Below, in pieces: positions 86-53,900 of a DNA stretch of 64,000 nt. This DNA is from Thermococcus cleftensis. GTDB taxonomy: Archaea; Methanobacteriota_B; Thermococci; Thermococcales; Thermococcaceae. Both the position numbers and the translations under genes were made by a program. The notes under the pieces were generated by a model. The model was not told the origin of the DNA and did no database searches. It was given only the letters and a program-made list of their open reading frames with translations. Position 1 is the first letter of the stretch. Each line of letters starts with the position of its first letter. The DNA is taken from contig NC_018015.1 of the NCBI RefSeq assembly GCF_000265525.1, positions 1,028,322 to 1,092,321 of the forward strand, read 5' to 3'.

Positions 86-221
86 GGGCTCAGGGTTTGT
101 TAAGATTTTTTGAGCATACACTGGTTGGTATAGTGTTTATTGCGTTGTAGTCAAAAAAAGTTCCCGTATTGAGTTAACCTTTAAAAACAATAGGGGATAG
201 TTAGACTCGATGGTGATTGTC

Positions 222-4067: not shown

Positions 4068-4070
4068 GGG

Positions 4071-4550: not shown

Positions 4551-4574
4551 TTTTAAACAAAGAAGGGAGTGTTC

Positions 4575-5238: not shown

Positions 5239-5341
5239 TGCTTTAAAAAAGCCGCCAGACATGGGCTTAAAGAGTTCTCTCAGAAGTTTAATGAATGCCG
5301 TTTTGGTTAACTCCCACTCAGGTATCCCTTCAGCGTAATTT

Positions 5342-5896: not shown

Positions 5897-5909
5897 GTCC
5901 CCCTCACCG

Positions 5910-6449: not shown

Positions 6450-7011
6450 CGCTGAGCACCTCCCCTATGGCGTTGTGGAGCTTCATTAAATCCCCTCTTG
6501 TCATAATAAAATTGATTGCAACAGGTTTCTTGTCCTTTAAGTGTTCGATTTTCAAGAGGTAGTACTTTAACTCCGCTCCATCCACGCTTATCTCCGCGGG
6601 GTGCACTTCAATAGCGTCAACTACAGGTAGGGTGTAAGCCCTTTTGAGCTTGGCTTTTACTCTGAGGTCAGGAACGTTGAGGGTCTCAAAGATTTTCTTC
6701 TCTATCTCACTTTCGGGCTCCTTTTCGTTGAAGACCATCTCTCCCAGTACCTTTAGTGTTTTCTTCATTGCTGCATTTAGGTAGCGTTTCTGCTCGTTCG
6801 TGTCAAGGCCCAGCTCTTTAAGGGAAGAGAGCACGTTGTTGCCCGGGATGGATATCGTGAGCTGGCCGTCTCTACCAACGGCAACCCTTGGCCTGTATTC
6901 CGAGAGAACTTTTTCAATGACTTTATTGATTAGCTCATCATCGAGCTTTGGCTTTTCACTCTCTGCTTTCGCCAGCAACTGGAGAATCTTAATAAGTTCA
7001 CTGTTCTCCAT
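6424..7011 (-). CDS. Unknown protein, first gene of leftward operon
   Basis: A 195-residue soluble protein with no family I can name. The N-terminal 60 residues are charged and helical. The C-terminal part (about 115-185) is beta-rich, with PAEISVDGAELKYYLLKIEHL, and ends with a helical segment. It leads a three-gene leftward operon (7011 to 5342) and is divergent from abiEi; the 111-base gap carries the abiEi inverted repeat and probably both promoters. No clear Shine-Dalgarno sequence precedes its ATG, so it may be leaderless. Confidence 0.65.
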   Translation of the reverse strand: MENSELIKILQLLAKAESEKPKLDDELINKVIEKVLSEYRPRVAVGRDGQLTISIPGNNVLSSLKELGLDTNEQKRYLNAAMKKTLKVLGEMVFNEKEPESEIEKKIFETLNVPDLRVKAKLKRAYTLPVVDAIEVHPAEISVDGAELKYYLLKIEHLKDKKPVAINFIMTRGDLMKLHNAIGEVLSDGDVTQGN

Positions 7012-7072
7012 AGAATGCCCCCACTTTTCATTGGGTTTTTGAACTTAAAAAAATTCCGTCTGGATATGTCAG

Positions 7073-7114
7073 TTTGACTAACAACCACTAACTTTTTATG
7101 GGTTGTTAGTCAAA
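7073..7114 (+). promoter_or_regulatory. Inverted-repeat operator over the abiE promoter
   Basis: TTTGACTAACAACC at 7073-7086 is repeated as its exact complement GGTTGTTAGTCAAA at 7101-7114, with a 14-base spacer. The spacer holds the TATA-like ACTTTTTATG at 7091-7100. The abiEi ATG lies 23 bases after the TATA element and has no ribosome site, so the mRNA is likely leaderless. AbiEi-type antitoxins are known to repress their own promoter by binding inverted repeats; here the repeat flanks the TATA box and would block TBP binding. Confidence 0.8.
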
Positions 7115-7122
7115 TTGAAACC

Positions 7123-7746
7123 ATGAAGCCCGTCATCCAGCTCCTACTCACGGAGTTCGGGGGAAAGGTAATAACCCGCGAAGAACTTGAAAGGCTCGCC
7201 TCGTACTTCAACGAGGACGTTGATTATCTGGTGAACTATCTCATCCAGTACGGCTACGTTATTCGTATCTTGCGGGGCCTCTACTACGTGAAAACACCGA
7301 TAGAGTTCTCAACCGGTGGCTCTCCTCCAATCTACAGGCTACTATCCCTCGGAATGGGTAAGATAACGAAGAATTGGTACTTCGGTCTCTTTACGGCCCT
7401 GGTCCTCAACGGCCTTACCCATGAAGGGTACACGACGGTCTTCATAATAAACGACAGACTCGCAAGACCAAGGCCTATTCAGGTGAATGGAACCCCAGTT
7501 AGGATAATCAGGAGCAGGAGGAACTTCTTTGACTTTGGAATAGTTGCCAGGGACTCACTAAAGTTCTCTGACCTCGAGAAGACCCTCCTTGACTTCCTGT
7601 ACTTCTCCAACTACGGCACCATACCCAAGAACCTCGCCCTAAGGGTTTGGAGAGAATACATAGATAATGCCAATACAGAAAAACTCCACCGGTATTCCGA
7701 AAGGTATCCCCGCTCAATAAGGAAGGTGGTTGAGAATGTTGGATGA
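7123..7746 (+). CDS. abiEi: AbiEi-like antitoxin/transcriptional regulator
   Basis: A 207-residue protein. Residues 1-60 form a winged helix with the pattern typical of AbiEi antitoxins (GGKVITREELERLA…YGYVIRILRGLYYV), followed by the C-terminal antitoxin domain. It should repress its own operon and neutralise the nucleotidyltransferase encoded next. The ATG lies just downstream of an inverted repeat with an internal TATA box. The end overlaps the abiEii start by 11 bases. Family assignment is good; function in this organism is inferred. Confidence 0.85.
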   Translation: MKPVIQLLLTEFGGKVITREELERLASYFNEDVDYLVNYLIQYGYVIRILRGLYYVKTPIEFSTGGSPPIYRLLSLGMGKITKNWYFGLFTALVLNGLTHEGYTTVFIINDRLARPRPIQVNGTPVRIIRSRRNFFDFGIVARDSLKFSDLEKTLLDFLYFSNYGTIPKNLALRVWREYIDNANTEKLHRYSERYPRSIRKVVENVG

Positions 7747-8752
7747 CTCGCTTCTTATGGAGATTCGCCTGAACGAGAGGAGAAGTTTTGCCAGGTTTGT
7801 CTCGAAGAAAACAGGGATAAAATCTGTTGATCTCGTGGAGTGGGATTACATAATCCACACTATCTTAAAGGAGCTTGAGAAAGATCCCACATTCAGGGAG
7901 AACTACGTTTTCAAAGGCGGAACCTGTCTCGTAAAGTGCCATCTCGGCTACTATCGCTTCAGCAGGGATTTAGACTTTGCATATAGGCACAGTGATGAGC
8001 TCAGGAATATGAGTAGGAGCAAGCTGAAGAAGTTCTTGAACGGGGAAACCGGCAGGATTGCTGAGACCCTGAAGTGCGTGGCCAAGGATTTTGGTCTTGA
8101 GTTTCAATACAAAGATCATAGCGACTTCAACAACCATCGTTACTTTAGCTTCCGAATCGGCCCAGGCTGGTTTAGGGAGATAGTTCTCTACTCACCCTTG
8201 GGAGAGAAGATAAAGGTGGAGGTAAACTACGCTGAGAGGCTTGCGTTCAGGCCAAAGACCCTGAAGGCGAACACCCTTCTGTCCTGGAAGGGAGTCAAAC
8301 TCACCCCGAGGGAGTATGAAAAGTACATTGAATTCCTCGGTAACTATTACCCACTCTCCCTCACTGCGTACTCCGACAGGGAGATTTTGGTGGAGAAAGT
8401 CAGGGCGCTGTTAACCCGAAAAGAGTTCAAACTCAGGGATCTCTATGACCTTTACAAGCTCAATCAGCGTGGCCTTAGGGTATCCAAGTACAAGAAGGAG
8501 ATAGTGAACAAAATACATGACTACCTTAACTTGAGCTCTCCGGCAAAGGAACATCTAGAGAGCTCCTTACAGTCCATTGATGAAGGCACCTTCCTCGAAA
8601 ACATTGAAGGTGAGATGGACAGGGACATCGGTCTGATCATCGAGCCCTTCGAAAGGGAAGAGTTTTTGAACTTCGTTGGAGAGTTAAAAGAGGAACTCAA
8701 GGGTATTGTTGATGATTTGAAGCACTTGGTAGAGGTGGAGAAAGATGGCTGA
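7736..8752 (+). CDS. abiEii: AbiEii-like nucleotidyltransferase toxin
   Basis: A 338-residue protein of the AbiEii/MenA nucleotidyltransferase family. The motif GGTCLVK is near residue 61 and the metal-binding FSRDLDF near 76-81; a later lysine-containing segment (EKVRALLTRKEFKLRDLYDLY) is typical of the family. Relatives transfer nucleotides to tRNA or other RNA and arrest growth in type IV toxin-antitoxin and phage-exclusion systems. ATG at 7736 is used; TTG at 7730 is possible. It overlaps abiEi at its start and the helicase gene at its end (8 bases), so toxin, antitoxin and helicase form one transcription unit. Confidence 0.88.
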   Translation: MLDDSLLMEIRLNERRSFARFVSKKTGIKSVDLVEWDYIIHTILKELEKDPTFRENYVFKGGTCLVKCHLGYYRFSRDLDFAYRHSDELRNMSRSKLKKFLNGETGRIAETLKCVAKDFGLEFQYKDHSDFNNHRYFSFRIGPGWFREIVLYSPLGEKIKVEVNYAERLAFRPKTLKANTLLSWKGVKLTPREYEKYIEFLGNYYPLSLTAYSDREILVEKVRALLTRKEFKLRDLYDLYKLNQRGLRVSKYKKEIVNKIHDYLNLSSPAKEHLESSLQSIDEGTFLENIEGEMDRDIGLIIEPFEREEFLNFVGELKEELKGIVDDLKHLVEVEKDG

Positions 8753-11700
8753 GTCGGCTATATCTCTTCTTGACAGGCACGGTCTCGTTGACAACCAGAG
8801 GGTTAGGCTGGTTGATGTTCTCAAGGAAGTGTTGACTTCAGGGGACTACAACCGGATAGACGTTGCCGTGGGTTTTCTCTTCATAAGTGGCATGAAAGAG
8901 ATTCAAAACGAGCTCGAGAAATTCTTCTCGAACGGGGGCAAGATGAGAATTGTAATAGGTAACCAAACGAACAGGGAAACCTTCGAGCAGCTCAGCATGG
9001 TTTACCACTCCCTTGAGGCCCTTCAAAAGATAAAACGCCGTGAAAAAAGCATGGAAACGAACCTTGACCAACAGAGCGAGGACATCGAAAAAAACGCCAA
9101 CTTCATGGAGCAGAGCGAGGAGAATGAGCAGTTCCTAAGGAGGCTTATGGACTGGGTTCGTAGTAACAAACTCGAGATTAAAATCTACGTCAAGGAGTTC
9201 ATGCACGCTAAAGCGTATCTCTTCTACCCTTCAAGGCCGTCCGTAACCCGGATGGGGCTCGTGGGCTCAAGCAACTTTACGCTGGCGGGTTTCTCCGGCA
9301 ATACCGAACTGAACGCCATCGTGCAGTCAACGCACTTCGAGAGCCTAAAAGAGTGGTATGATGAGATTTGGGAGGAGGCCCTTCCGTTCAACCCAAAGCT
9401 TCTCGAGATAATAGGAAACAGCTGGGCAGGCCAGGTTCCGGGCAACTTACCCTTGCCGTGGGAAGTACTGATCAGGGGCCTGTACGAGCTTTACAAAGAT
9501 GTCTTAGACAAAGACACGGGTTTTCTCTTGAGAAGGCTCGAAAACGTTCTCTACGACTTCCAGAAGGATGCAGTTAAGAGGGCAATATCAATAGTCAACA
9601 AATACAATGGGGTTCTGATAAGTGATGTTGTCGGTCTTGGGAAGAGCTACATAGGATTGGCACTTTTAGAACACTTCTCACTCTTGGATCTCTTGAATGG
9701 GCGTCCCAGGGAAGTTGCTGTGATAGTCCCTCCAAGTCTTGTTAGGTACTGGGAGGGGCTATTGAGGGAGTACAACATCCCCGGGAAGGTATTTTCCGCG
9801 GGCCTTTTGCCACGTAGAGAGCTTTCACCTGCCAAATACAAGGAAATGGAGAGCTATCTAAAGAACGTCGGAACTGTTTTGGTAGATGAGGCGCATCACT
9901 ACTCAAATCCCTCCACCAAATCCTACAAGAACCTTCAAGAACTAATTTCGGGTAAGAGGGTCATTCTCTTAACCGCAACGCCCTACCGGAAGAGATACAA
10001 GGATATGATAAGCCAAATTCGCCTGTTCCTTCCTGAGAGACGACACCCGTTTCCAATACATCCTCAGAACTGGGATGATTTAACGAAGGCCATTGAAAAC
10101 GGCGAACTGGACCCGTCTTACGTCTTCAGGGAGATTTTAATAAGGAGAACAAGGCACGACATCCTTAACCTCTATGGAGGAAAGGACAACTGCATTAAGG
10201 TCAAGAAAAATAAAAAACTGTGTTTCCCCGAGAGAAGGCTCTCCGTGTTGACTTACACTATCTCAGAGGTTTACCCGGAAGACATCTACGAGTTGCTTTT
10301 GAACGGCATTTCTTCCATGAACTACGCCAGGTTTGACCTTTACAGCTACGTCCTACCCCAGTTCCAGGATGCTGAGCCATACAGAAGCTTGTCCTCCGCG
10401 GGTAAAGGACTCCGGGGTATCATGAGGATTCTTTATCTGAAACGCTTGGAGAGTTCCTGGTATGCAATGTATCAGACCCTGAGAAGGGACCTGATCAAGA
10501 CGAAGAACTTCATCACTTTCGTCGAGAACGACTTCATCCCCGCTGGCGATGAGTTCGATGATGTGCTCTTGGGCAAGATTAACAGCGATAAAGAGGAGAG
10601 GGTTCTAGATGGGGAGGAGGTAAGGAAGTTCATTGAGAATTACAGGAGGGCTGGTAAAGTCACTTACAAAGCTGGTGCCTTTAGGGTCAGGAAATTGTTG
10701 GAAGATTTAAGGCACGATCTCAGGATTCTGGAGTCCATGGAATCTGCACTTAGGCCCCTTAAGGAGCAATTAGAAAGCAGTCCTAGGAGAGATCCCAAGC
10801 TCAGAAAGTTAGCTGATGAGATAGTGGAACTAAGAAATGAGGGCAAAAAGATCCTCGTTTTCAGTGAATTTGAAGAGACAGTTCAGTGGGTTTACAACGG
10901 GCTTAAAAGAACACTCCCTGAGGACATCTCGGAAAAGATGGAATACGTAAGCTCAAACACCAGGGGGATACCCAACAAGATAGTACGTTTTGCACCGCGG
11001 TCTAATGGCCTCGAGGATGAGATAGATGAATCCCAAGAGCTTCACGTTCTAATTGCAACTGACGTCCTCAGCGAAGGACTCAACCTTCAGGATGCCAACG
11101 TTGTAATAAACTACGATCTGCACTGGACGCCAATCAAGTTAATTCAGAGAATTGGTAGGGTTGATAGAATTGGAACTGAACATGATGAAATCCTGATCTA
11201 CAACTTCTTCCCCGAGAAGAAACTAGAGGAGAACCTGGGACTCCTCCAAAAAGTTGAGAGAAGAGTTCAGGAATTCAACAGGGCGTTGGGGACGGATGGG
11301 AAGATACTTCAAGAGGAAGAGGAATGGAACCCCTCAGCAATTAAAGCGATTTACGGGACCGAGAACATCGAGAAAATTGAAGAGGATGTAAGTGGTTCAC
11401 TGTTGTCAGTTACAACCTTTGCCGAAAAGCTCCTAAGAGAGTTTAAGGAGTCCAACGCGGAAAAGTTTGAGGAGATTACAAGGAGATACTCCATGAGGAG
11501 TATTGTCAGGTCCAACACGGAATATCCCGTGGCGTTTTTTGTCTGCAGCAATGGAGTGATATCCCAGTATTTTGTTTATCGTCTAGTTAACGGTGAATGG
11601 AAGGCCCAAAACGTTCCAATTGAACAGTTGCTCAAAGATACTGGTTTGAACGAAGATACACCTTCACTTAACAGCAACGAAGCTATGAAAATCTACCGCG

Positions 11701-12131
11701 GTGCAGCTAAAAAAGTTCTTTCGGACTTCCAGAAACTACTGAGGATCGCTGAGAGTGAACTGGAGTACACCACCCGGAGACCCTCCAAGATCCCGGCACA
11801 GGTCAGGATAATTCTCGGCAAACTTCAGGAGAAAATCGAAAAAACCAGGAGTCCCGGAGAGAAGGAGTCCCTGAGTCTGCTCTATGATCTTGTCTATTGG
11901 GGATACCTGAACAATGAGCCTTTCAGAAATGCGCTCTTAAAAGCCAACGTGAAGAAGACCACTTCAAGAGATAAGGTAGAAGAGCTCTGCTGGAATCTAG
12001 TCGAGCGCTTTGGGATAGCAGCAAGACGTAAAGCAGTTAAAGAGGAGATAACAAAGCGTAGAACTGAAGGGATTAAGCCTCACATAGTTGCGGGGCTGCT
12101 ATTTGTCCCAGATGGCAGCCGAGGTGAATAG
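8745..12131 (+). CDS. SNF2-type helicase with N-terminal PLD nuclease domain (DrmD-like)
   Basis: An 1128-residue fusion. Residues about 1-220 form a phospholipase D-like domain with HAK at 154-156 and GSSNFT near 175. A superfamily 2/SNF2 motor follows: motif I DVVGLGKSY near 294, DEAHH near 381, TATPYRKR near 408 and QRIGRVDRIG near 801. The C-terminal 300 residues are helical. Such helicases act in restriction-like defence; DISARM class 1 uses an SNF2 helicase called DrmD. The start overlaps abiEii by 8 bases, an unusual link between a toxin-antitoxin pair and a defence helicase. The partner could be the methyltransferase at 222-4067 or the drmABC genes at 16.7 kb. Only one HKD-like motif is obvious, so nuclease activity would need dimerisation. 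Confidence 0.85.
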   Translation: MAESAISLLDRHGLVDNQRVRLVDVLKEVLTSGDYNRIDVAVGFLFISGMKEIQNELEKFFSNGGKMRIVIGNQTNRETFEQLSMVYHSLEALQKIKRREKSMETNLDQQSEDIEKNANFMEQSEENEQFLRRLMDWVRSNKLEIKIYVKEFMHAKAYLFYPSRPSVTRMGLVGSSNFTLAGFSGNTELNAIVQSTHFESLKEWYDEIWEEALPFNPKLLEIIGNSWAGQVPGNLPLPWEVLIRGLYELYKDVLDKDTGFLLRRLENVLYDFQKDAVKRAISIVNKYNGVLISDVVGLGKSYIGLALLEHFSLLDLLNGRPREVAVIVPPSLVRYWEGLLREYNIPGKVFSAGLLPRRELSPAKYKEMESYLKNVGTVLVDEAHHYSNPSTKSYKNLQELISGKRVILLTATPYRKRYKDMISQIRLFLPERRHPFPIHPQNWDDLTKAIENGELDPSYVFREILIRRTRHDILNLYGGKDNCIKVKKNKKLCFPERRLSVLTYTISEVYPEDIYELLLNGISSMNYARFDLYSYVLPQFQDAEPYRSLSSAGKGLRGIMRILYLKRLESSWYAMYQTLRRDLIKTKNFITFVENDFIPAGDEFDDVLLGKINSDKEERVLDGEEVRKFIENYRRAGKVTYKAGAFRVRKLLEDLRHDLRILESMESALRPLKEQLESSPRRDPKLRKLADEIVELRNEGKKILVFSEFEETVQWVYNGLKRTLPEDISEKMEYVSSNTRGIPNKIVRFAPRSNGLEDEIDESQELHVLIATDVLSEGLNLQDANVVINYDLHWTPIKLIQRIGRVDRIGTEHDEILIYNFFPEKKLEENLGLLQKVERRVQEFNRALGTDGKILQEEEEWNPSAIKAIYGTENIEKIEEDVSGSLLSVTTFAEKLLREFKESNAEKFEEITRRYSMRSIVRSNTEYPVAFFVCSNGVISQYFVYRLVNGEWKAQNVPIEQLLKDTGLNEDTPSLNSNEAMKIYRGAAKKVLSDFQKLLRIAESELEYTTRRPSKIPAQVRIILGKLQEKIEKTRSPGEKESLSLLYDLVYWGYLNNEPFRNALLKANVKKTTSRDKVEELCWNLVERFGIAARRKAVKEEITKRRTEGIKPHIVAGLLFVPDGSRGE

Positions 12132-12192
12132 TGAATCATGTCCATCTCAAATTATTTAACGCGTTAGGATAAACTACAAACTGGTGATCACG

Positions 12193-12639
12193 ATGGAGGA
12201 GAAGGTCGTCGGTGTTACCTTTCCCGTCCCAAAGCCCTTCCTGGACAGGATACTCGAGGAAGGGAAGAGGGTCTTCGTGAAGCCCTCGACGCTGAGGGTG
12301 AAACCGGGAATGAAGGTTGTTTTCTACGCCTCCAGGGAGGGCCAGGCCTGGCTCGGGGAGGCGGAAGTTGAGGGCGTCGAGTTCCTCAACGGTATCGAGG
12401 AAATCATCGAGAAGTACGGGGATGAGTTGTTCCTCACAGCCAAGGAGCTCAGGGATTACGAGAGGGAAAGGGCGAAGTGGCACTCCCGCGGGAGGAGGCC
12501 GAGGCCCTGGATGGTGCTCAGGTTGAAAAACCTCAAGAAGTACCCGAAACCCGTTAAACCGCCGAGGTTCATTGCGGTATCGGGGAGGTACATAAAGGAG
12601 AGGGAATACAAGGAAATCCTAAGGAAGAGCGGGCTTTAG
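12193..12639 (+). CDS. DUF365 (PUA/ASCH-like) protein
   Basis: A 148-residue protein opening with [17 protein letters not shown], the typical start of the archaeal DUF365 family, whose fold resembles PUA/ASCH RNA-binding domains. The role is unknown, perhaps binding of RNA or modified nucleic acid. ATG at 12193 is chosen because GGTGATC lies just upstream; a GTG at 12184 is in frame. A TATA-like ATTATTTAA lies near 12153. It converges with the EVE-domain gene and overlaps its end by 4 bases. Codon use is GC-rich and host-like. Confidence 0.75.
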
Positions 12640-13067
12640 AGGAGGCTTTCAATGATTTTGTAATCCTCCTCTGGGATTTCTCTCATTGCTTTGCCCATTA
12701 AATGCCCGCTCCAGCGCTTCTTGTTCGTGATGAACTTCAGCTTTGGGATGAGGGGCTTGAAGTCGAGCTCACCGAGCTTTATGGGCTTGATTTTGACCCT
12801 GAGGGGGTAAGTCTCGTTTAGGTGTGGTGGACTCTTGAAGATTCTGCTTGAGTCTGTGTAAGGCTCGCTCACGACTTCAAAGATGCCGACGATCTTAGGC
12901 TCGAGAACTTCCTTGTTCTTCCTTTCCTGCTTGACGTAGAAGACGAGCTTGTCACCGGGTTTGACTTTGGCGATGGTGTTCTTGTGCCTCTTTGCCACGC
13001 CCCAGACGTTCTTCTTTCTGACAACCTCCCAGTTGTCGCGATTGGTGATGCAGAGCCAGTAGGTCAT
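12636..13067 (-). CDS. EVE-domain (UPF0310) protein
   Basis: A 143-residue protein starting MTYWLCITN, then [22 protein letters not shown] and ending [19 protein letters not shown], which is the EVE/UPF0310 layout. EVE domains belong to the PUA-like superfamily and bind modified bases; they are often fused or linked to McrB-like and other restriction modules. Its position among DNA-methylation genes fits a reader of modified DNA or RNA, but that is inference. GGTGAA precedes the ATG. It converges with DUF365, with a 4-base overlap of the ends. Confidence 0.85.
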
Positions 13068-16246: not shown

Positions 16247-16686
16247 GGGGCCATGGTAGCTCCCTCAGATTTGCAGATGCTGAGTCGAATACATCTGAAC
16301 TTACAAACCCGACCCACACCAGCCCCTAGCCACGAGACCACAACTACAAAGGCCATTCCGAAGAAAAAGCTCCCTAAGAAACCAGAAACTCCGTCCCAAA
16401 CACATGAGAAAGTTCTTTGCGCAGGAACAGGAGAAACGGCAACGCCACAATCAAAAAGCTCCTTATGGGTCACTCAATTAGATACGATATCAATGCTCTC
16501 CATTACTCCCATCACACGGTGGATGAGCTTCAGGATGCATATGATAAGATTTTCGAAAATTTGCGATTTATTTCTTTTTGATTTATTTATCCAGATCCTG
16601 GTTATTATTTTCAATCATGCTTTTTAGTAACTCTTAAAAGGATTGGTACCATCAATTTTACTGCTGGAGAGGGGGAGGTCGACAGT
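16247..16686. other. Gene-poor junction before the DISARM island
   Basis: About 440 bases with no gene that I can support. Base composition changes here from GC-rich host style to AT-rich. A frame on the minus strand (about 16240-16473) has a hydrophobic stretch, VVVVSWLGAGVG, and could be the remnant of a membrane-protein gene. Near the right end are a TATA-like CTTAAAAGG (about 16632-16640) and the ribosome site of drmA. I saw no copy of the tRNA-Gln 3' end here. Confidence 0.5.
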
Positions 16687-19600
16687 ATGGGAATGCGATC
16701 AGATCTCGTTGCTGATCTCGTTGCTGAGCTTCTTGGTCCAAGAGATGGCATCTATGAAGAACTCCCCAAAACAAGAAAGCCGACAACAGAGTACATAACG
16801 GGGATTCTTTCCCCAAGGACAATATTATCTGAAGAGATCATAGAGTATGCATCTACAGAAGGAATTTCAGGAACTGAGGAAGTTACCAGAGGAGCTGAGG
16901 ATGAGGAAGAGGATGGTGATGTAAGTCTTGGGTTCAACCCCATTCTGGATCCCAGATCTCCTCCCCGTTCGCTTGGCATCTCTTTTGCTATTAAACCATT
17001 AACCGGAAAAACTCCCATTCTTGCAATTTGTGTTACATGGGCGCGCTATTTCTGGGACGGGGGTAAAAACGTATGGAAAAGATTTCCTAGGGCTTCATGT
17101 CTGAAAGTTGAGCTTAAACCATGTGTGGAAGGAGCCCCATGCCCCCCTCAGGATTTTAAATTGCCAGAAAGCAAAGTTGCAGAGCTTTTGGGTATTACAG
17201 AGGATGAACTCCTGCTTCGAGTAATCACCAGAAGACGGGGAGAACAAGTCCACGTATCCATATTCCTTGTTAATGCGCTTCAGTTCAATAGGGATAGTTC
17301 AGATGGAATTGGGTTTGTTCAAACTCATATCTTCCAGCCACAGATTAGGGTTAGAATATTCAATGCTGAGCCTGTTCACACCACGTTTGGAAACGAATCT
17401 GATGTGGTTGATTTTGTTTATCGTAATCGCAAAGGGTATGCAAAGGGTCATATGTGCTCTGCAGTATGGTGCATACAGTCACCTGAGGAGTGTGTTGATC
17501 CAGAGTTTGAATTTCCGGGGGAGGCTCCTCCTCGACCGCCATTTAAGTGGATTGATTCGGAAACTGTGTTTGAAATTTACAAAAAAATTGCAGAAAAGGA
17601 AGGTATTCCTGAGCCTGAAAAAGCTGCAAAATCCTTGGTCAACCTATTTATTCCTCTTTCTCCACAGGATGGGGATTCATGGAAAAACTTCATGTTGATT
17701 CGTTCAGAATTTGTTCCGGTTTACGCCATCTCAGCACCTTCCTTTAGCTGGAGGGAGGAATTTGGAAGACCTCCTGTTCTTGAGGCGAGAAAGCTTGCTG
17801 AGATGTGGAACCCCTCCGAACTGAAAAATGCCCTTATGCCACTGTACAGAGGATACCTTAAATGGTTCAAAGATCAGGTAAAAGAGTACCTGAAGCTGAA
17901 AAAGGAGAGTGAAAAGCGTATTGGGCTCATTATGTTAAGGGAAATAGCCAATGTCATCGGGAGGATCCGGAGAGGAATACGTGTTCTTGAGACCGATGAA
18001 GATGCCAGGCTTTCATTCTGCTTTGCAAACAAGGCTATGGATCTCCAGTTTGGATGGCAGCATAAAGATAAACAAGGGGATGGACAACCATTGGTATGGA
18101 GACCTTACCAGCTGGCATTCCTTTTGATGAATATTGAGTCCATAACAAATCCAGATTCTCCAGATAGGGAAATCTGCGATCTTCTGTGGATACCAACTGG
18201 AGGGGGAAAGACTGAGGCATATCTTGGACTAGTGGCCTTCACACTGGCATACCGGCGCAGAAGAGCACTTTCTAGGATAGGGAAATCTGATATCGACACA
18301 AGCGGAGCTGGCACTGGTGTTATTTCAAGATACACGCTAAGGCTGCTTACAATTCAGCAGTTCAGAAGGGCACTTTCCATGATAACTGCCTGCGAGTACC
18401 TTAGAGTGTACGGACTTAAAGAAGGAAAACCTCCTGGATGGAGACCTAAAGGGTATCCCAATCAGGAAGATCAGTTTATCTGGGGAGGTACAAGATTCTC
18501 CATAGGTCTATGGGTAGGAGGCAATCTCACTCCTAACAGACTTGATAGCGTTCCAAGCAGGGATAAATCGGAAATTATTCCCGGTGCACTTGATATTCTT
18601 CTGGGAAAAGCCTCAGAAAAGGGTCGGGGTGAACCCGCACAGGTACTGCGTTGCCCCGCTTGTGGAAGCATACTTGCAATCCCTGCCGGCGGACTGGACG
18701 CAAAAGAACCGGTTCAGATCCATCTAACAATCCGATCTTCATCGTCAGCAGAAACTATCAACGAGATTCTAAAGAAGATAGCAGGCGGCAATATTGGAGA
18801 TACTGGTATTGAGTTGGTGTCAGTATTGGTCGAGGCTCTCCCATCTCCAGAATTTCATGTTATTACGTTTACAATTCGCAGTGATAGACCTATCACGACT
18901 GATCTCTGGGATGGTGCATGGGAAGTTATTAAAGAATTTCTGAACAAACACAATATCCACGTAACCCTGAGGGCAGCAAGACCTTCAAGACCGGGATATT
19001 TCCTGATATCAAGAGCGAGGAATAAATCCAAAAAATCCAGTGCCTTTCACGACTTTGAAATTTACTGCCCAAATCCAAAGTGTGAGCTTAATAATGCCCT
19101 CTGGGTTGAAGGTTATCCAAAGGGTAGCCATGATTCATTCGAATTCAGAATTAATGGTAAACGCATGTATCTCCATATTCCCGGAAATCTTGAATTCAGG
19201 ATGGTCCCTGATTTTACATGGGTCGAACGAATGGAAGGTATTACAATAAATCGGGAAACTTCAAGCGTTCTTTCCCACAGGATCCCAATACCCGCCCAGA
19301 CCGTTGATGAACAGATTTACAGATTGCCTCCTTCTTTTTTGATAGCTACCGTTGATAAATTTGCCCAGATTTCATTTAAGCCTGAAAGTGCGATTTTATT
19401 CGGGATAACCAATGCATTTAGCTCCACTGTTTCAAAATCGCAAAAAGATTTGATGGAAACTGAGAAGGGATTTGGCTACAGGAGAATGCGTCCAGAGAAA
19501 ATACGTGGTAACGGAAGGGTTAAAGTGCCACGTCTAGACCCCCCCGACTTGGTAATACAGGACGAGCTCCATCTGATCTCAGGTCCCCTTGGGAGCATGG

Positions 19601-20844
19601 TTGGAATCTACGAAGTGGCAGTTGATTATCTGACCGGGAATAGGGCAAAATATGTTGCATCGACAGCCACTGTAAAAGGGGCGCAAGAACATGTGGGGAC
19701 ATTATTCACACGCAAACTATCCATGTTCCCCCCTCATGGGATTGTTCCAGATGACAGATTCTTTGTAAAATACCGCCGTACACATCCCAGAGACGAAAGC
19801 AGACCCGGCAGGCTGTACGCCGGTGTGATCGCACCCGGTAGGGGTCCCCATACTCCACTCGTGAGAATATGGGCAAGGTTGCTTCAAAGCGTCTATGATC
19901 TAAAAGATAAATATCTTAAAGATGAGGACTACTTCTGGACGTTGGTGGGTTATTTTAACGCCATTCGTGAGCTAGCAGGCGCACGCAGCCTTTACAGACA
20001 GGATATCCCGTTACGCCTTAGGGATCTTCAACCGGACGAATCAAAACGCAGACCGATCAGGGACGATGACGTTGTCGAGCTTTCCAGCAGGAGAGATTCA
20101 ACAGAATTGCCCGCCCTGCTGAGAAAGCTTGAAAGAACGCATGCAGCCGATGCAATTTTTACAACAAGCATGTTTGGAACAGGAGTGGATATCGGGCGTC
20201 TTTCTCTGATGGTTGTTAACGGCCAGCCCAAGACGACCACCTCATACATACAGGCCACGGGTCGTGTGGGGAGAAGAAGAGCGGGTCTTATTGTTACCTT
20301 TTATCGGGCTACCCGTCCGAGAGATCTGAGTCATTACGAATTTTTTATTGGATATCACAGTGCTCTTGACAGGTATGTTGAACCCTCAACAGTGGCTCCT
20401 TTTTCACAGGGGACCATAGAACGAGCCTTGGGACCTGTTATGGTGGGAATATTGAGGAATCATCCGAATCCTAAAGTGCCATGGTGGCAGGATAGGAGTG
20501 CTCCCCTCATGGCTGATGAAAGAACCCGGGCACCCGAGATCATGGAGCTTATCCGAATATTCAGCGATCGTCTGAGAAAATTACCCGGATCAAGACAGCT
20601 TGTGGAGACCGATGAACTAAAGGAGATTGTTGAATCAAAGCTGGACAAGTGGAAGGAAGTGGCAAAAAAAGTTGATGGTGATCTTGAATACCATGAGTAC
20701 TTCCGAGCAACAAAGCCTGTTGTGCTTGGAACACCCGCACATGAGTACAAAAGAAAACCGGTAGTTTACCCCAACGCACCCAATTCCCTTAGAGATGTTG
20801 AGGAGACTGTAGGATTTCAGATTACTGATTTAAGGGGGAGATAA
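16687..20844 (+). CDS. drmA: DISARM protein DrmA, helicase
   Basis: A 1385-residue helicase-like ATPase, the core subunit of DISARM phage defence. Walker A PTGGGKTEAY begins at about residue 503, the DELH box at 959, SATVKG near 997, and the C-terminal helicase motif QATGRVGRR begins at 1189. The middle insert has two cysteine pairs (RCPACGS near 655 and YCPNPKCE near 794) that may bind zinc. The GTGVDIGRLSLMVVNG segment is typical of DrmA. GGGGGAGGT lies 6 bases before ATG 16687; ATG 16693 is also possible. It leads the island operon, with drmB starting 2 bases after its stop. DrmA and DrmB form a complex that loads on 5' single-stranded ends of incoming DNA in the studied system. Confidence 0.92.
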   Translation: MGMRSDLVADLVAELLGPRDGIYEELPKTRKPTTEYITGILSPRTILSEEIIEYASTEGISGTEEVTRGAEDEEEDGDVSLGFNPILDPRSPPRSLGISFAIKPLTGKTPILAICVTWARYFWDGGKNVWKRFPRASCLKVELKPCVEGAPCPPQDFKLPESKVAELLGITEDELLLRVITRRRGEQVHVSIFLVNALQFNRDSSDGIGFVQTHIFQPQIRVRIFNAEPVHTTFGNESDVVDFVYRNRKGYAKGHMCSAVWCIQSPEECVDPEFEFPGEAPPRPPFKWIDSETVFEIYKKIAEKEGIPEPEKAAKSLVNLFIPLSPQDGDSWKNFMLIRSEFVPVYAISAPSFSWREEFGRPPVLEARKLAEMWNPSELKNALMPLYRGYLKWFKDQVKEYLKLKKESEKRIGLIMLREIANVIGRIRRGIRVLETDEDARLSFCFANKAMDLQFGWQHKDKQGDGQPLVWRPYQLAFLLMNIESITNPDSPDREICDLLWIPTGGGKTEAYLGLVAFTLAYRRRRALSRIGKSDIDTSGAGTGVISRYTLRLLTIQQFRRALSMITACEYLRVYGLKEGKPPGWRPKGYPNQEDQFIWGGTRFSIGLWVGGNLTPNRLDSVPSRDKSEIIPGALDILLGKASEKGRGEPAQVLRCPACGSILAIPAGGLDAKEPVQIHLTIRSSSSAETINEILKKIAGGNIGDTGIELVSVLVEALPSPEFHVITFTIRSDRPITTDLWDGAWEVIKEFLNKHNIHVTLRAARPSRPGYFLISRARNKSKKSSAFHDFEIYCPNPKCELNNALWVEGYPKGSHDSFEFRINGKRMYLHIPGNLEFRMVPDFTWVERMEGITINRETSSVLSHRIPIPAQTVDEQIYRLPPSFLIATVDKFAQISFKPESAILFGITNAFSSTVSKSQKDLMETEKGFGYRRMRPEKIRGNGRVKVPRLDPPDLVIQDELHLISGPLGSMVGIYEVAVDYLTGNRAKYVASTATVKGAQEHVGTLFTRKLSMFPPHGIVPDDRFFVKYRRTHPRDESRPGRLYAGVIAPGRGPHTPLVRIWARLLQSVYDLKDKYLKDEDYFWTLVGYFNAIRELAGARSLYRQDIPLRLRDLQPDESKRRPIRDDDVVELSSRRDSTELPALLRKLERTHAADAIFTTSMFGTGVDIGRLSLMVVNGQPKTTTSYIQATGRVGRRRAGLIVTFYRATRPRDLSHYEFFIGYHSALDRYVEPSTVAPFSQGTIERALGPVMVGILRNHPNPKVPWWQDRSAPLMADERTRAPEIMELIRIFSDRLRKLPGSRQLVETDELKEIVESKLDKWKEVAKKVDGDLEYHEYFRATKPVVLGTPAHEYKRKPVVYPNAPNSLRDVEETVGFQITDLRGR

Positions 20845-20846
20845 CT

Positions 20847-22760
20847 ATGAGCAGGGTTCAGCATATTAGAAGGTCTCAATTTATCACAACGTTTGGGCCG
20901 GGCGCGATTATTGAGACAACAGAAGGACCGAGAATTGTGCTCAGCCCGAATATTGGACTGTTTCATGAATGGAACAAAAACAAAGGAATAACCCCCGAAA
21001 AGCTTGAAATCTCTCATGAAAGAATGTCAAAAGGGTATCTAAATGGTGCAAGAGTGTTCCAGCTACCTTCGAATGCAGAGCTTGATCTTCGTCCTGAATA
21101 TGCACTTTACAGAACGGATCCGTTCCCTCGCTGGTCAATATGCACAAAGCATGGAATTCTCTACCATCAGAGCCACGGATGTCCCAAATGCAGGGAGGAA
21201 CTTAAAAAGAAGGGTTATTCAAAGGATGAAATAGAAAAAAGACTTCAGGAACAGGGGAGAAAACAGGCAATCCGTTTCATACTTGCATGTCCAAAGGGCC
21301 ATATTGGTGACATAAACTGGGCATATGAAGTCCATGGACCAAATTCCTCATGTAATCATACTTCTTGGTTTTACTGGAAACGTGAAGGACCCGCTCTCTC
21401 AGATGTCACGATAGAATGCCCGGAATGCCGGGCTAAGGTAAATCTTGGAGTGATCTACAAAAAACCGCACAGGTGTCCAGGCACATACTTGGAACGAAGA
21501 GAACGCTTGGGAGATGTGATGGGGTGCAATGAACATGCATATGCAATACAGCGTCAGGCTTCAAATCTCTATGTTCCAGAAATTGCCACCTTGTTTACGG
21601 TTCCCCCGCGTGCAACGACACTGCATAGGATATTCATGAGGGGGGAGATTAGGAGTTCGTTAAAAAAAGTTCTTAAACTAAAACCAGATATCCTAGATAA
21701 TAGAGACGAGTTTATTGAGATTTTCAAAGAGGATCTAACAGCCGATGAAATAGCTGAAATTGAATCATATGACTGGGAAGACGCAAAAAGCATAATTCTT
21801 GAAGTTGCAGGTAATAATACAGAGGTGCCAAACAGCCCTTACGAACTGTTTAAAGAGGAATTTGACTCTTTTATGAATGCTTCCAGAAAAGGATTTCCCC
21901 CGCTAACTTCCAATATCGGAAAGGAACGTGTGCTATTTTATGTCAATCGCAACAAGATCCGTCGTATTTCTGATGAAAATGGCGTGACGTTCAGGGTTGC
22001 ACCTGTAGATAAGCTTCACACTGTCATGGTTTTAAAGGGGTACAGAAGATTCATCGGAAAACCTGGTGGTGGAGTTGATACCTCAACCATAGATGCAAAA
22101 CTGGTATCAGTCTCGTTCAATGATGGAAAGGACGAATGGTATCCAGGAGTCCAGTTATTTGGGGAGGGCATATTCATTACGTTTGACGATGAGCGGCAAC
22201 TGTGGGAATATCCGAATCGGAGACCAGATCTGAGAAAGCATTACGATGAATGGTTTAGAGCATTTAGCTCTGGAGGCCATGGATACAGAGAATACCTCTT
22301 TAAGGATCCTGCGAAAAGATTTGAGCTTCATCCGGCATTTGTGTTTTGGCACACACTTTCTCATCTCCTGATACGTGCTATCTCTGTTGATTCGGGATAT
22401 TCTGCAGCATCAATAAGGGAAAGGGTTTACATAAAGGTGGATGATCCCCAGCATCCAGTAGGAGGGATAGTCCTGTACACATCTCAGCCCAACACTGATG
22501 GAACCTTGGGGGGTCTTGTATCACTGGTTCGCAGGTTTGAGAAAATCCTGAAGGAAGCATATGACTCGCTTTACTCTTGTTCAAATGATCCCCTGTGTCT
22601 GGAACAGGAGTTTAAATTCACTCCGAGCAAGCCTGCTTCTGTTAACGGAGCAGCCTGTTATGCATGTACTCTAATATCAGAGACCTCCTGCGAGCATAGA
22701 AACATGTGGCTTGATAGACATCTTTTGATGGAGTGGATGGAGGGGCTTCACCGTGAGTAG
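20847..22760 (+). CDS. drmB: DISARM protein DrmB (DUF1998)
   Basis: A 637-residue protein. It opens with RRSQFITTFGPGAIIET, typical of DrmB, has cysteine-rich segments (HGCPKCRE, IECPECRA) that could hold zinc, and ends with the DUF1998 domain: FWHTLSHLLIRAI near residue 502 and a Cys-rich end (YSCSNDPLCLEQ, ACYACTLISETSCEH). DrmB partners DrmA in DNA recognition. AAGGGGGAG lies before the ATG. The end overlaps drmC by 8 bases. Codon use is AT-rich like drmA and unlike the chromosome on either side. Confidence 0.92.
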   Translation: MSRVQHIRRSQFITTFGPGAIIETTEGPRIVLSPNIGLFHEWNKNKGITPEKLEISHERMSKGYLNGARVFQLPSNAELDLRPEYALYRTDPFPRWSICTKHGILYHQSHGCPKCREELKKKGYSKDEIEKRLQEQGRKQAIRFILACPKGHIGDINWAYEVHGPNSSCNHTSWFYWKREGPALSDVTIECPECRAKVNLGVIYKKPHRCPGTYLERRERLGDVMGCNEHAYAIQRQASNLYVPEIATLFTVPPRATTLHRIFMRGEIRSSLKKVLKLKPDILDNRDEFIEIFKEDLTADEIAEIESYDWEDAKSIILEVAGNNTEVPNSPYELFKEEFDSFMNASRKGFPPLTSNIGKERVLFYVNRNKIRRISDENGVTFRVAPVDKLHTVMVLKGYRRFIGKPGGGVDTSTIDAKLVSVSFNDGKDEWYPGVQLFGEGIFITFDDERQLWEYPNRRPDLRKHYDEWFRAFSSGGHGYREYLFKDPAKRFELHPAFVFWHTLSHLLIRAISVDSGYSAASIRERVYIKVDDPQHPVGGIVLYTSQPNTDGTLGGLVSLVRRFEKILKEAYDSLYSCSNDPLCLEQEFKFTPSKPASVNGAACYACTLISETSCEHRNMWLDRHLLMEWMEGLHRE

Positions 22761-23220
22761 GAATGTAAAAATTCTGACAACAGGGAATCATCTCAAATCT
22801 AGGAATTTCAGGAATATTGAGACAGTGATTCAAGAGCTTTTTGATGATGCTCATGAACAGATACATCTTGTTACATATGTGATTACAGATAATACCATGT
22901 GGCTAATTGACATGATTGAAAAAAGTCTCCGCAGAGGAAGGTTTGTGAAATTGATAGTAAACGAATTGAACCCTTCTTTGAAGGTAACCCAAAAACTTTT
23001 CCAGCTGAAAAAACACTATGAGAATTTTATCTTGGTCGAATTCAGCAAAAAATATCCCGGAGAAACAATTCATGCAAAGACTATTGTGGTTGATCGCAGA
23101 AAGGCAGTAATCGGATCAATGAATTTCACATGGGGAGGAATGGTTGGAAATCATGAGATAGGCGTTCTTATCGAGGGGCCGGAAATTGAAGATCTTGCCT
23201 ATGCCCTCGATATGCTTTAA
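22753..23220 (+). CDS. drmC: DISARM protein DrmC, PLD-family
   Basis: A 155-residue phospholipase D-like protein with one HKD motif: His107, Lys109 and Asp114 in HAKTIVVD, followed by GSMNFTWGG. Single-motif PLD proteins work as dimers. In DISARM, DrmC is accessory and not needed for protection in the studied class. It starts at GTG 22753 inside the end of drmB, with GGAGGGG upstream, so translation is coupled. The 38-base gap to drmMII contains that gene's ribosome site. Confidence 0.88.
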   Translation: MSRNVKILTTGNHLKSRNFRNIETVIQELFDDAHEQIHLVTYVITDNTMWLIDMIEKSLRRGRFVKLIVNELNPSLKVTQKLFQLKKHYENFILVEFSKKYPGETIHAKTIVVDRRKAVIGSMNFTWGGMVGNHEIGVLIEGPEIEDLAYALDML

Positions 23221-23258
23221 AAGCCGTCGATAAATTACAGCTGGGAGGAGAGCATACG

Positions 23259-24596
23259 ATGAAATCACGGTACAGCTACAGTTTCATAGATCTATTCGGT
23301 GCACCGGGGGGATTCTCTCTTGGTATGGTGCTGGCCGGATTAGTGCCCCAAGCAGCCGTTGATATTGACCCCCACGGGATAAGAACGTACAACTACAACT
23401 TCAGGGAAGCAATGGGATTTGACACCACCGGCCTGAAAGAAGACCTCAGAAAGCTGCCCCCTGAAGTTATTTCGAAGGAGTCAGGTGTCCAAAAAGGTGA
23501 TATTGATGTAGTTGTGGGAGGTCCGCCCTGTCAGGGTTTTTCCATTGCGGGACGGGTAAAAATAGCAAATCTCGCAAGAAACGGGAAAAAGAAGGATGTA
23601 AAAAATCACCATCCCAGATTCATAGACGATCCCCGAAACATACTTTATCGAGAATTCGTTAGGATAGTTGACTATTTCCAGCCAAAAATCGTCATAATGG
23701 AGAATGTGCCGGGGATGATGAGCCACAGAGACGGGGAAACTGTGAGGGAGATAGTTGATGACTTCAGAAGGATTGGATACATTGTTCCTGGATGGGAAAC
23801 GGGAAACAATCCAAGAATACTCAATGCCGCCGATTTTGGCGTGCCCCAGACAAGAAGACGTATTTTCTTTGTTGGAATCCACCAAGATGAAAAATCACTT
23901 ATTGACGAGTTCAAATGGCCCATCCCCACACATAAAGACCCTGAACAGCCTCCCAAGAAAAATCTGATTGATTACATTTCCGGAGATCTCCATCCCAAGT
24001 ATCCATACGTAACCGTTGGACAGGCCATCGGAGATCTTCCGGAACCGGTAGTCGCGAATAGATCGGGAATGGAAGATTACCCTATGTTCCATATTATCCA
24101 TCCCTTTTCTAGATATCAGGAATGGGCCCGGAAAAAAACCTCATTCTGGGATGGAATGGTTCATAATCATATTTCTCGTCCTCACACCGAACGGGATAGA
24201 TTGACCTTTGAGCACATGGAGGAGGGAGATTCATGGAAAGACCTTCCCCAGCACATAAAGGCCTTTTATGGGTATCGTGATGACATCTTCAGGGATAAAT
24301 TCAAAAAACTCATATGGGATCGTCCTTCATGGACAATAACCGCCCATCTACAGAAGGACGGGTACAGATACATACATCCTGTTAAACCGAGAACCCTAAC
24401 CCCCAGAGAGGCGGCAAGGCTCCAGAGTTTCCCTGACTGGTTCGTCTTTAAAGGTCCCAGAACTGCACAGTACAGGCAGATAGGAAACGCTGTTCCCCCG
24501 TTTCTTGCGGCCGCACTCGGTCTGGCAATAATTGCAACTTTTGAGGGATGGGGGGTGAAAAAACTTTGGAAACGCCAGATGAAAATACTGAGTTAA
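23259..24596 (+). CDS. drmMII: DISARM cytosine-C5 DNA methyltransferase DrmMII
   Basis: A 445-residue m5C methyltransferase. Motif I FIDLFGAPGGFSLGM starts at residue 7, the catalytic PPCQGFS has Cys91, ENVPGM is near 148, QTRRRIFF near 198 and RQIGNAVPP near the end. The target domain lies between about 250 and 370; its recognition sequence cannot be read from sequence alone. In class 2 DISARM this enzyme marks host DNA. GGGAGGAG precedes ATG 23259. The last 49 bases overlap the downstream glycosylase gene in another frame, which ties the two in translation. Confidence 0.92.
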   Translation: MKSRYSYSFIDLFGAPGGFSLGMVLAGLVPQAAVDIDPHGIRTYNYNFREAMGFDTTGLKEDLRKLPPEVISKESGVQKGDIDVVVGGPPCQGFSIAGRVKIANLARNGKKKDVKNHHPRFIDDPRNILYREFVRIVDYFQPKIVIMENVPGMMSHRDGETVREIVDDFRRIGYIVPGWETGNNPRILNAADFGVPQTRRRIFFVGIHQDEKSLIDEFKWPIPTHKDPEQPPKKNLIDYISGDLHPKYPYVTVGQAIGDLPEPVVANRSGMEDYPMFHIIHPFSRYQEWARKKTSFWDGMVHNHISRPHTERDRLTFEHMEEGDSWKDLPQHIKAFYGYRDDIFRDKFKKLIWDRPSWTITAHLQKDGYRYIHPVKPRTLTPREAARLQSFPDWFVFKGPRTAQYRQIGNAVPPFLAAALGLAIIATFEGWGVKKLWKRQMKILS

Positions 24597-25225
24597 TTGA
24601 GTTTTTTGTTAATTCCCTGCTATCTTGGTATTATCAGAACGGACGGAACTTTCCGTGGCGTGAGACAAGGGATCCCTATCGAATACTTGTCGCTGAGCTC
24701 ATGCTCCAGCGCACCAAGGCTTCCCAAGTTGTACCGGTTTATCTTGAATTCATAAAAGAATTTCCGGATGTATTATCCCTTTCAAGGGCATCCCCGGAGA
24801 GAATTAGAGAATATTTCTCGAGACTCGGGCTGGAATGGAGGGCAGAAAAAGTTCTGGCTTTGGCAAAGATTCTTGCCGAAAAATATGAAGGCAGGATCCC
24901 ATGTGATAGAAAGGAACTGTTATCTCTTCCTGGCATAGGACAGTACATTTCCGCCGCTGTTCTGAGCTTTGCATGTGATGTACCCGTTGCGGTGGTTGAT
25001 TCCAATGTTGTGAGAGTTCTCAGTCGCTATTTTGGGGTAACACCCAAAGGAGAAGGAAGACGTGATAGAAAAATACTTGGACTTGCTTCAAAGATTCTAC
25101 CAAAGCACTCCCATAGAGAGTACAATTTTGCAATAATAGACTTTGCTGCTCTGATATGTACTCCCAAAAAACCAAAATGCAAAAGGTGCCCATTACGTGA
25201 AAAGTGTTCCAATAAGTTATTATGA
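24548..25225 (+). CDS. MIG-type T/G-mismatch DNA glycosylase
   Basis: A 225-residue HhH-GPD glycosylase with a [4Fe-4S] cluster (Cys204, 211, 214, 220). The hairpin LPGIGQYISAAV puts Tyr133 where bifunctional EndoIII has its lysine and MutY a serine; the MIG thymine glycosylase of Methanothermobacter has Tyr there. Asp151 (VVDSNVVRV) is the catalytic aspartate. The ending EYNFAIIDFAALICTPKKPKC is also MIG-like. The likely job is removing T opposite G after deamination of 5-methylcytosine made by DrmMII. MutY-type A/G activity is the main alternative. The start overlaps drmMII by 49 bases. TTG at 24566, after GGGGTGA, is an alternative start. Confidence 0.85.
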   Translation: MGGEKTLETPDENTELIEFFVNSLLSWYYQNGRNFPWRETRDPYRILVAELMLQRTKASQVVPVYLEFIKEFPDVLSLSRASPERIREYFSRLGLEWRAEKVLALAKILAEKYEGRIPCDRKELLSLPGIGQYISAAVLSFACDVPVAVVDSNVVRVLSRYFGVTPKGEGRRDRKILGLASKILPKHSHREYNFAIIDFAALICTPKKPKCKRCPLREKCSNKLL

Positions 25226-25372: not shown

Positions 25373-26644
25373 ATGCGTAGGAAGGGTTTAATCAGGCTGG
25401 AATACCAACCTGAGGAGCTTCAGTACCTTATCTCAAGCAACGACGTTGAGGAAATGCTCGCAGACTATGCATCAAGTCACAGTATCTCGGAGACATAAAG
25501 AGCTTGAAAGGTTTGTGTGGCAGTTCCTGAGATTTGTAAAGACCGGGAAACTTGAATCAGGGAATGGAATAAAAGCCCCTACCAAGAGAGAAGAGTATGT
25601 TGTTTCACGAAGAGTTTTGGTGGAATATGTAAGGGCCCTAATTGGGGCAGGGTACTCAAACTCATCAATGACAAAAAGACTGCAAGCAGTAATTTTGCTG
25701 CTGAGAAGGATGGGAGTTTCGGAAGTGCTGATAGACGTGCTGAGAGACCCGTTGCGGAAAGTAAACGCGGCAAGAAAAATTGAGCAGGAAGAAAATACCC
25801 CGGATTTAACACTCGAAGACGCTAGGGAGTTCTTTAAAAGGCTGGAACGGCTGTTTCATCTCGGTAGATTGAAAGAAAAACAGTATGCAAAGGCACTGGC
25901 GTTTGCACTGCTGCTCTTCAGCACTGGCAGAAGAGTCAGTGAAATTGTGCAGATCAGAGTGGACGACATCGACTTCGAGACACACAGCATCAAACTATCC
26001 TCCGACCGGACAAAGGAGGGCAAACTGCTGGGAATAGAGGGTCATAAAACAGTATTCATGACCAGAGAGACAGAATATGCGGTGAAATACTATCTAGAAC
26101 TCAGTGGAGATGAAATCAGAAGGCGGGGTGGATATCTCTTCATGCAACCGGGCAAGAGGAGCTTGAAGGATACGTTCCTGCACAAGATAGCGAAGAAAAG
26201 CAGAAATCTGGAGGGCCTTGGGGCAAATTTGAATTTCATTACCAGCGATGGACTTCACAGATTCAAAATCAAGTACTTCAGAAAGCTCTTCATACAGGGG
26301 TGGGAGAGGAGGGCCGAAGAGAATGGAATGAACAATGAGAAGGTGTTTGGGGCGGTCAGAAAGCTAACCGGACACAGGCCATCAAATGATGTCCACAGAA
26401 CCAACTACGCCAGAATAAGCGTGCAGGAGCTCTGGAAGTACTACAGAGAGCTTTACTACGACATCAGTGTGCTCACGGAAGAGCAGAAGAGAATGATAGG
26501 GATATTACCAAGAAAAACAGCCTCTAAACCCATAATCTCTGCAGGAAGCTTCAACAGGCCTTCAAACACAAATATCGCCATCAACCGGAAGATGGCATTA
26601 ACGGCTCCAGTTCACAGTCCAGAGTACATGGGTCTCTTAAATTG
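25373..26644 (+). pseudogene. Tyrosine recombinase/integrase, frameshifted near N-terminus
   Basis: An archaeal tyrosine recombinase. Catalytic-type residues are Arg in STGRRVSEI, HRFK at the HxxR position (Lys for the second Arg), GHRPSNDVHRTNY and a C-terminal Tyr. The open frame from TTG 25446 has no good ribosome site. A separate frame from ATG 25373, behind GGTGGG, encodes RKGLIRLEYQPEELQYLI and then hits a stop at 25496-25498. A one-base shift near 25487 joins them into about 423 residues (…SSHSI-RRHKELERF…). It sits 214 bases from the tRNA-Gln 3' end and probably brought in the island. It may now be inactive, or the shift may be a sequencing error. Confidence 0.7.
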
Positions 26645-26647
26645 ACA

Positions 26648-26857: not shown

Positions 26858-26933
26858 TGGTAGCCCCGCCGGGATTCGAACCCGGGTCGCGGGATCCAAA
26901 GTCCCGCATGCTTGGCCGCTACACCACGGGGCT
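26858..26933 (-). tRNA. tRNA-Gln (anticodon UUG)
   Basis: Reading the minus strand from 26933, the acceptor stem AGCCCCG pairs with CGGGGCT. The anticodon stem CGGGA/TCCCG encloses the loop CTTTGGA with anticodon TTG, and the T arm GTTCGAATC is present. The discriminator base is A and the CCA end is encoded (26858-26860). No intron is seen. The island lies beyond its 3' end, the usual integration side for archaeal elements. Confidence 0.95.
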
Positions 26934-50102: not shown

Positions 50103-50150
50103 AGGCCGGGGCGATGATATAAATTGAAAGTAATTGGAGAGTGCCTTCAG

Positions 50151-50407: not shown

Positions 50408-50413
50408 GCTATG

Positions 50414-51580: not shown

Positions 51581-51605
51581 GTGTTGTTTCACCTCCACCT
51601 TGACA

Positions 51606-52556: not shown

Positions 52557-52580
52557 TGTGGTCACCACTAGTTTGGCTTA

Positions 52581-53898: not shown

Positions 53899-53900
53899 CC

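Follow-up and report, generated by a model that had tools for sequence, protein, structure and literature searches.

The DISARM operon of the archaeon Thermococcus cleftensis carries, overlapping the end of its methyltransferase gene drmMII, a gene for a DNA glycosylase that we assign to the MIG type, and MIG-like genes recur in DISARM loci of the long DrmA type (DrmAL) from unrelated phyla. We consider it likely that in DrmAL-type DISARM this enzyme acts as a T:G repair accessory to the 5-methylcytosine (5mC) predicted to be made by DrmMII. Moreover, DrmAL-type DISARM probably represents a distinct cross-domain class of which a T:G repair enzyme is a regular component, a role filled by unrelated enzymes (MIG, an EndoIII-like domain fused to the methyltransferase, and Vsr).

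DISARM, MIG, and the pairing of MIG with m5C methyltransferases are each already known separately. The literature searched, which did not include the original DISARM paper, yielded no description of a glycosylase as part of DISARM, and the word ‘glycosylase’ is absent from a 2025 survey of YprA-family systems. The pairing of a marking enzyme with a predicted repair enzyme recurs in related defense systems of archaea and bacteria, and in both heat-loving and ordinary species. If the proposed role is correct, defense systems that mark self with 5mC commonly must carry repair of their own mutagenic mark, and what the self-mark costs in mutations would account for a recurrent component added to one branch of a widespread antiviral system. 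Epigenetic immunity would then have a cost open to experimental test, and a MIG-like gene or Vsr beside drmMII would serve as a practical marker for finding and classifying DrmAL-type DISARM.

The DISARM operon and its genomic setting

The window – the 64,000-nucleotide stretch of the 1.95 Mb T. cleftensis genome that was analyzed – contains a complete drmA-drmB-drmC-drmMII operon followed by an HhH-GPD glycosylase gene that overlaps drmMII, as identified with PADLOC and NCBIfam models (Table 1). With the ATG at 24548 as start codon the overlap is 49 bases, and the gene order and overlap originally noted are borne out. If translation instead began at a TTG at 24566, which is preceded by a better ribosome-binding site (GGGGGGTGA), the overlap would shrink to 31 bases. 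Searches with PADLOC, NCBIfam and locus models found no drmD, drmE or drmMI within the operon; a PLD-SNF2 helicase gene at 8745-12131, which lies 4.5 kb upstream, gives only a weak match to DrmD models. Because drmD and drmE are missing, we refer to the operon as DrmAL-type DISARM and not as class 1 or class 2.

Table 1. Features of the DISARM operon and adjoining genes in the T. cleftensis window
Feature	Position	Strand	Basis
drmA, long type (DrmAL), SF2/YprA-family helicase	16687..20844	+	NCBIfam NF038326 (DISARM_DrmAL) 1414 bits, cut-off 999; PADLOC DrmA 1571 bits
drmB, DUF1998, DrmA partner, adjoins drmA	20847..22760	+	PADLOC DrmB 734 bits; NF038324 504 bits, cut-off 240
drmC, PLD-like nuclease, short form without N-terminal part	22753..23220	+	PADLOC DrmC 160 bits; NCBIfam DrmC_I 80 of 133, under cut-off
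drmMII, DNA cytosine-5 methyltransferase, motifs PPCQ, ENV, QxRxR	23259..24596	+	PADLOC DrmMII 849 bits; TIGR00675 dcm
MIG-type HhH-GPD DNA glycosylase, 4Fe-4S motif, predicted T:G (U:G) specificity	24548..25225	+	1KEA best PDB match; residues; tree; pLDDT 91.5
Tyrosine recombinase/integrase adjoining the operon, probable mobility agent	25446..26645	+	XerA-like NF040815 match, under cut-off
tRNA-Gln(TTG), possible integration site	26858..26933	-	ARAGORN

The G+C content is 44-46% over 16-26 kb of the window, compared with about 55-60% for most of the sequence on either side, and together with the tyrosine integrase and the tRNA-Gln gene this indicates that the operon was probably imported. A repeat search found no attachment-site repeat of the tRNA-Gln within the window. 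Another stretch of low G+C (44-46%), at 50000-58900, encodes several predicted secreted or membrane proteins, one of them 1322 residues long with a metalloprotease-like HELGH motif. Upstream of the operon is a defense island (210-12131) with an Eco57I-type methylase/restriction gene, a TIR-domain protein, an AbiEii nucleotidyltransferase and its probable partner, and the PLD-SNF2 helicase (PADLOC C3a139). Between the two defense clusters there is a convergent pair (12184-13067) of a DUF365 gene and an EVE-domain gene, the latter with the fold of modified-base readers.

Assignment of the glycosylase

The glycosylase is 225 residues long and has no C-terminal 8-oxoG domain. Its closest solved relative by sequence is Mig.MthI (1KEA; 3.5e-46, 37% identity), ahead of all MutY structures, and 1KEA is also the best Foldseek match to the predicted fold (AlphaFold2, pLDDT 91.5). 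The features of MIG – an HhH-GPD core, the 4Fe-4S cysteines, and Glu42/Tyr126/Asp144 in Mig.MthI numbering – are all present, with Glu50 and a C-X6-C-X2-C-X5-C cluster motif conserved in the window protein along with Tyr133 and Asp151. The last two residues, of which Tyr133 occupies the position of the catalytic Lys of EndoIII, had been put forward as the MIG pattern. They are indeed in place, but Tyr at this position does not part MIG from MutY because six of seven MutY proteins have it too; most MutY carry both residues, and we rejected the Tyr/Asp pattern as proof of MIG.

Four other positions are discriminating: where Mig.MthI has F27, R47, A50 and L187, MutY has L, Q, V and Q, respectively (PMC2714593). 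The window glycosylase has F, R, A and F, of which three are identical to Mig.MthI and the fourth, Phe187, is conservative (hydrophobic and not Gln), whereas the MutY proteins compared have L, Q and V in 7/7 and Q at position 187 in 6/7. Across the 18 MIG-like proteins linked to DISARM, position 27 is always F or Y, 47 is always R, and 187 is always one of the hydrophobic residues L, F or Y; most have A at position 50, but five have V or S. Counting against a MIG identity are the V or S at position 50 in these five homologs and, in the window protein, the Phe in place of Leu at 187 and a Gln at position 46, as in MutY. In the tree, MutY forms one clade (support 100/100) containing none of the MIG-like DISARM proteins; the same tree does not resolve the order of the MIG-like branches near Mig.MthI.

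An A/G- or A/8-oxoG-specific relative of MutY, linked to the operon by chance, would share Tyr133 and Asp151, and the best NCBIfam model is in fact mutY, although the score of 193 bits falls short of the 286.5 cut-off. However, the MutY signature residues and the C-terminal 8-oxoG domain are absent and the protein lies outside the MutY clade, which makes such a relative scarcely credible. Family models easily mistake DrmAL-type glycosylases for A/G-specific MutY. Sequence, active-site residues and predicted fold together argue for the MIG-type enzyme that was originally predicted, distinct from both MutY and EndoIII, and the tree sets it apart from MutY; the clustering with MutY that would have spoken against it was not found in either residues or tree. 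T:G activity would be expected from this assignment. The residues do not themselves prove activity, because E. coli MutY altered to resemble Mig.MthI at two positions remained inactive on T/G (PMC2714593).

Recurrence of the linkage in DISARM loci

DISARM loci were gathered by DrmA only – 80 loci of named genomes plus further DrmAL loci from six phyla – and the sample was thus not picked for the glycosylase. Annotation with purpose-built models and NCBIfam checks yielded 26 DrmAL loci, including L054 and the fragment L063, both of which were assigned to DrmAL by similarity with no curated-model score. Hosts include Archaeoglobales, Methanosarcina, Chloroflexota, Chthonomonas, Hydrogenothermus, Desulfallas and Schekmanbacteria. 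A C5-cytosine methyltransferase gene is present in 22 of the 26 loci (PF00145 was confirmed for nine of these proteins besides that of the window), and is accompanied by a MIG-like gene in 17, an EndoIII-like gene in two (L059 and L065), Vsr in one (L180), and none of these in two (L061 and L177). The usual order in the MIG-like loci is methyltransferase-glycosylase-drmA-drmB-drmC.

The exceptions vary in form. In L059 (Desulfallas sp. Bu1-1) the EndoIII-like domain is fused to the m5C methyltransferase in one 678-residue protein (coordinates 16376-18412) inside the DISARM operon, and in L065 the EndoIII-like glycosylase adjoins the methyltransferase. In L180 a Vsr with a conserved active-site motif occupies the slot of the window glycosylase (A-B-C-m5C-X), and the methyltransferase there is 47% identical to that of L056, whose neighbor is MIG-like. 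L061 and L177 have an m5C gene with neither glycosylase nor Vsr, although the m5C gene of L061 may be part of a neighboring restriction system; a repair enzyme is thus not indispensable.

DISARM loci with the other DrmA type differ: of the 23 whose visible stretch includes an m5C gene, eight have Vsr and a single one, L085, has a MIG-like gene, which lies 5 kb off on the opposite strand. The difference in MIG-like genes (17/22 versus 1/23) gives a Fisher p of 4e-7, which is indicative since the test ignores shared ancestry. Vsr lies directly beside drmC or the m5C gene in many of the short-DrmA-type loci (L066-L132; for example L091, L096, L105, L117 and L123), and is apparently an undescribed recurrent neighbor there. 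In L071 (10559-12577) the DISARM methyltransferase ends in a fused HhH-GPD-like domain from which the catalytic Asp/Tyr have been lost, and this locus also has Vsr.

Among 94 Thermococcaceae genomes there is only one other DrmAL operon (G102), which has the same gene order and a glycosylase 86% identical to that of the window. The glycosylase linkage is beyond chance on the basis of this operon and the 17 DrmAL loci, and the concern that it might be unique to one genome does not hold, as it recurs in unrelated phyla. These 94 genomes contain 25 C5 methyltransferase genes, and only four have a MIG-like neighbor: those of the DISARM operons in the window and in G102, one in a G065 locus of restriction type, and one at a second T. 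cleftensis locus. Six further Thermococcaceae m5C loci have no MIG-like gene within about 6 kb. The low frequency of MIG-like neighbors shows that the pairing is not automatic.

A different explanation is that the glycosylase gene travels as a passenger of the methyltransferase gene: DISARM would have acquired an m5C-MIG pair of the Mig.MthI type from type II restriction, and the presence of the glycosylase would mean nothing for DISARM as such. MIG-like genes do adjoin m5C genes in ordinary restriction systems, including the mig of pFV1, plasmids of Thermus and Caldicellulosiruptor, the G065 locus and the second T. cleftensis locus, and the pairwise distances of glycosylase and DrmA correlate weakly (0.24, p 0.08, not significant), compared with 0.95 for drmA and drmB. 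However, the DrmAL methyltransferases fall into several distant lineages and yet one glycosylase clade (14 rows, 99/98) persists with them, the glycosylase and methyltransferase distances are uncorrelated (0.05, p 0.31), the two genes stand at opposite operon ends in L182, and the pairing is as infrequent in Thermococcaceae as described above. We regard a passenger as rather unlikely, and it does not contradict a repair function; the operon parts are exchangeable yet retained together. No co-evolution of the glycosylase with either DrmA or the methyltransferase is claimed, as neither correlation is significant. Nor do we propose that MIG-like genes were recruited into DISARM several times independently, because the AU test does not reject monophyly for the 18 DISARM-linked MIG-like proteins (p 0.47); a monophyletic group is recovered weakly (87/77) once the long-branched L044 is removed.

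L044 itself (T. cleftensis C1:1434000-1440500) has at 461-3768 a second cytosine methyltransferase, a further gene and a MIG-like glycosylase without the iron-sulfur cysteines, and probably represents type II restriction equipped with a dedicated repair enzyme. In L182 (8391-11756; G1119, a reverse-gyrase genome) the drmA frame is split, with in-frame TGA codons that were read through by the search, and the operon may be decaying.

The operon had been proposed as a thermophilic version of DISARM; on this view, rapid 5mC deamination in the heat would be the reason for retaining the gene. Reverse gyrase is a marker of hyperthermophiles, and was used as the proxy for temperature. Seven of the DrmAL genomes with the glycosylase encode it (G000, G102, G117, G124, G287, G1119 and G1231), and every m5C-bearing DrmAL locus in a reverse-gyrase genome (seven of seven) includes a MIG-like gene. 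However, ten genomes with MIG-like DrmAL loci do not have reverse gyrase, including Methanosarcina sp. 2.H.T.1A.6 and a Chthonomonas relative, although these ten may include moderate thermophiles. The proportions (7/7 versus 10/15 of the other m5C-bearing DrmAL loci) do not differ significantly in a test that ignores shared ancestry (Fisher p 0.13), and Vsr, which is frequent in mesophiles, occurs in the same DISARM contexts. A thermophile-specific variant is thus improbable, and thermophily as the driver is unsupported with this marker.

Proposed repair of the self-mark, and comparison with known systems

5-methylcytosine can deaminate to T, giving a T:G mismatch that uracil-DNA repair misses. 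We propose that DrmMII would mark host DNA with 5mC and that DrmAB, being less active on methylated DNA, would spare the marked host. Where a 5mC made by DrmMII has deaminated, the MIG-type enzyme, a predicted monofunctional glycosylase, would excise T from the T:G pair, and host AP endonuclease, polymerase and ligase would then restore C. Overlap of the two genes may provide for their co-expression. Excision of T at the deaminated self-mark would make the glycosylase an accessory to self-marking.

Vsr cleaves DNA at T:G mismatches, and its presence in the glycosylase slot of L180 suggests that the slot itself points to T:G repair; two unrelated folds, MIG and Vsr, have in common this slot and a T:G mismatch as known or predicted substrate. 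Three lines appear to converge on such repair, namely the known pairings of Mig.MthI and Vsr, the Vsr slot of L180, and the fusion in L059. The coupling of the glycosylase to an m5C methyltransferase is upheld by the DrmAL loci, and the idea of host marking paired with repair gains support from the recurrent linkage, the Vsr replacement and the fusion.

Alternatively, the glycosylase could be a defense effector, excising bases from viral DNA as an R.PabI-like restriction glycosylase or as an enzyme against modified viral bases, with AP-site cleavage destroying the virus. Restriction glycosylases do exist (PMC10273834), and PADLOC labels glycosylases of the MIG-like kind ‘Type II nicking endonuclease’. 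However, PADLOC gives Vsr the same description, so the label does not indicate restriction and we rejected it as evidence. Moreover, the glycosylase has no added recognition domain, it resembles a mismatch glycosylase in both residues and fold, and replacement by Vsr would be unexpected for a base-excising effector. An effector role is very improbable, and the glycosylase is most probably not antiviral in itself but, as proposed, a repair accessory.

DISARM reportedly has, in the account of Ofir et al. from 2018, a drmA/drmB/drmC core with drmMII. The same composition is described by Bravo et al. 2022 (PMC9142583). The window has all of the core genes and an m5C methyltransferase, with DrmA and DrmB over their family cut-offs; it differs in being without drmD, drmE and drmMI, in the long type of its DrmA, and in the additional T:G-type glycosylase gene that is usual in the DrmAL type. 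The glycosylase shares the HhH-GPD fold and 4Fe-4S cluster with MutY and EndoIII, but is without the MutY signature residues and 8-oxoG domain, and has Tyr where EndoIII has its catalytic Lys.

Precedents for repair coupled to m5C are Mig.MthI/M.MthTI in restriction systems and Vsr/Dcm in orphan methylation. The E. coli Dcm-Vsr pair and the V-genes of restriction systems are similar to the window in having an m5C methyltransferase followed by an overlapping T:G repair gene (20 bases for vsr/dcm), although the two enzymes differ in fold, Vsr being a nicking endonuclease and Mig a glycosylase. Mig.MthI/M.MthTI of pFV1 (Methanothermobacter) has the same glycosylase subfamily and the same linkage to a C5 methyltransferase. 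Mig.MthI, however, is part of a restriction-modification system of the NgoPII type, and its gene is read in the direction leading away from the methyltransferase gene, whereas the window gene overlaps the methyltransferase gene inside a DISARM operon.
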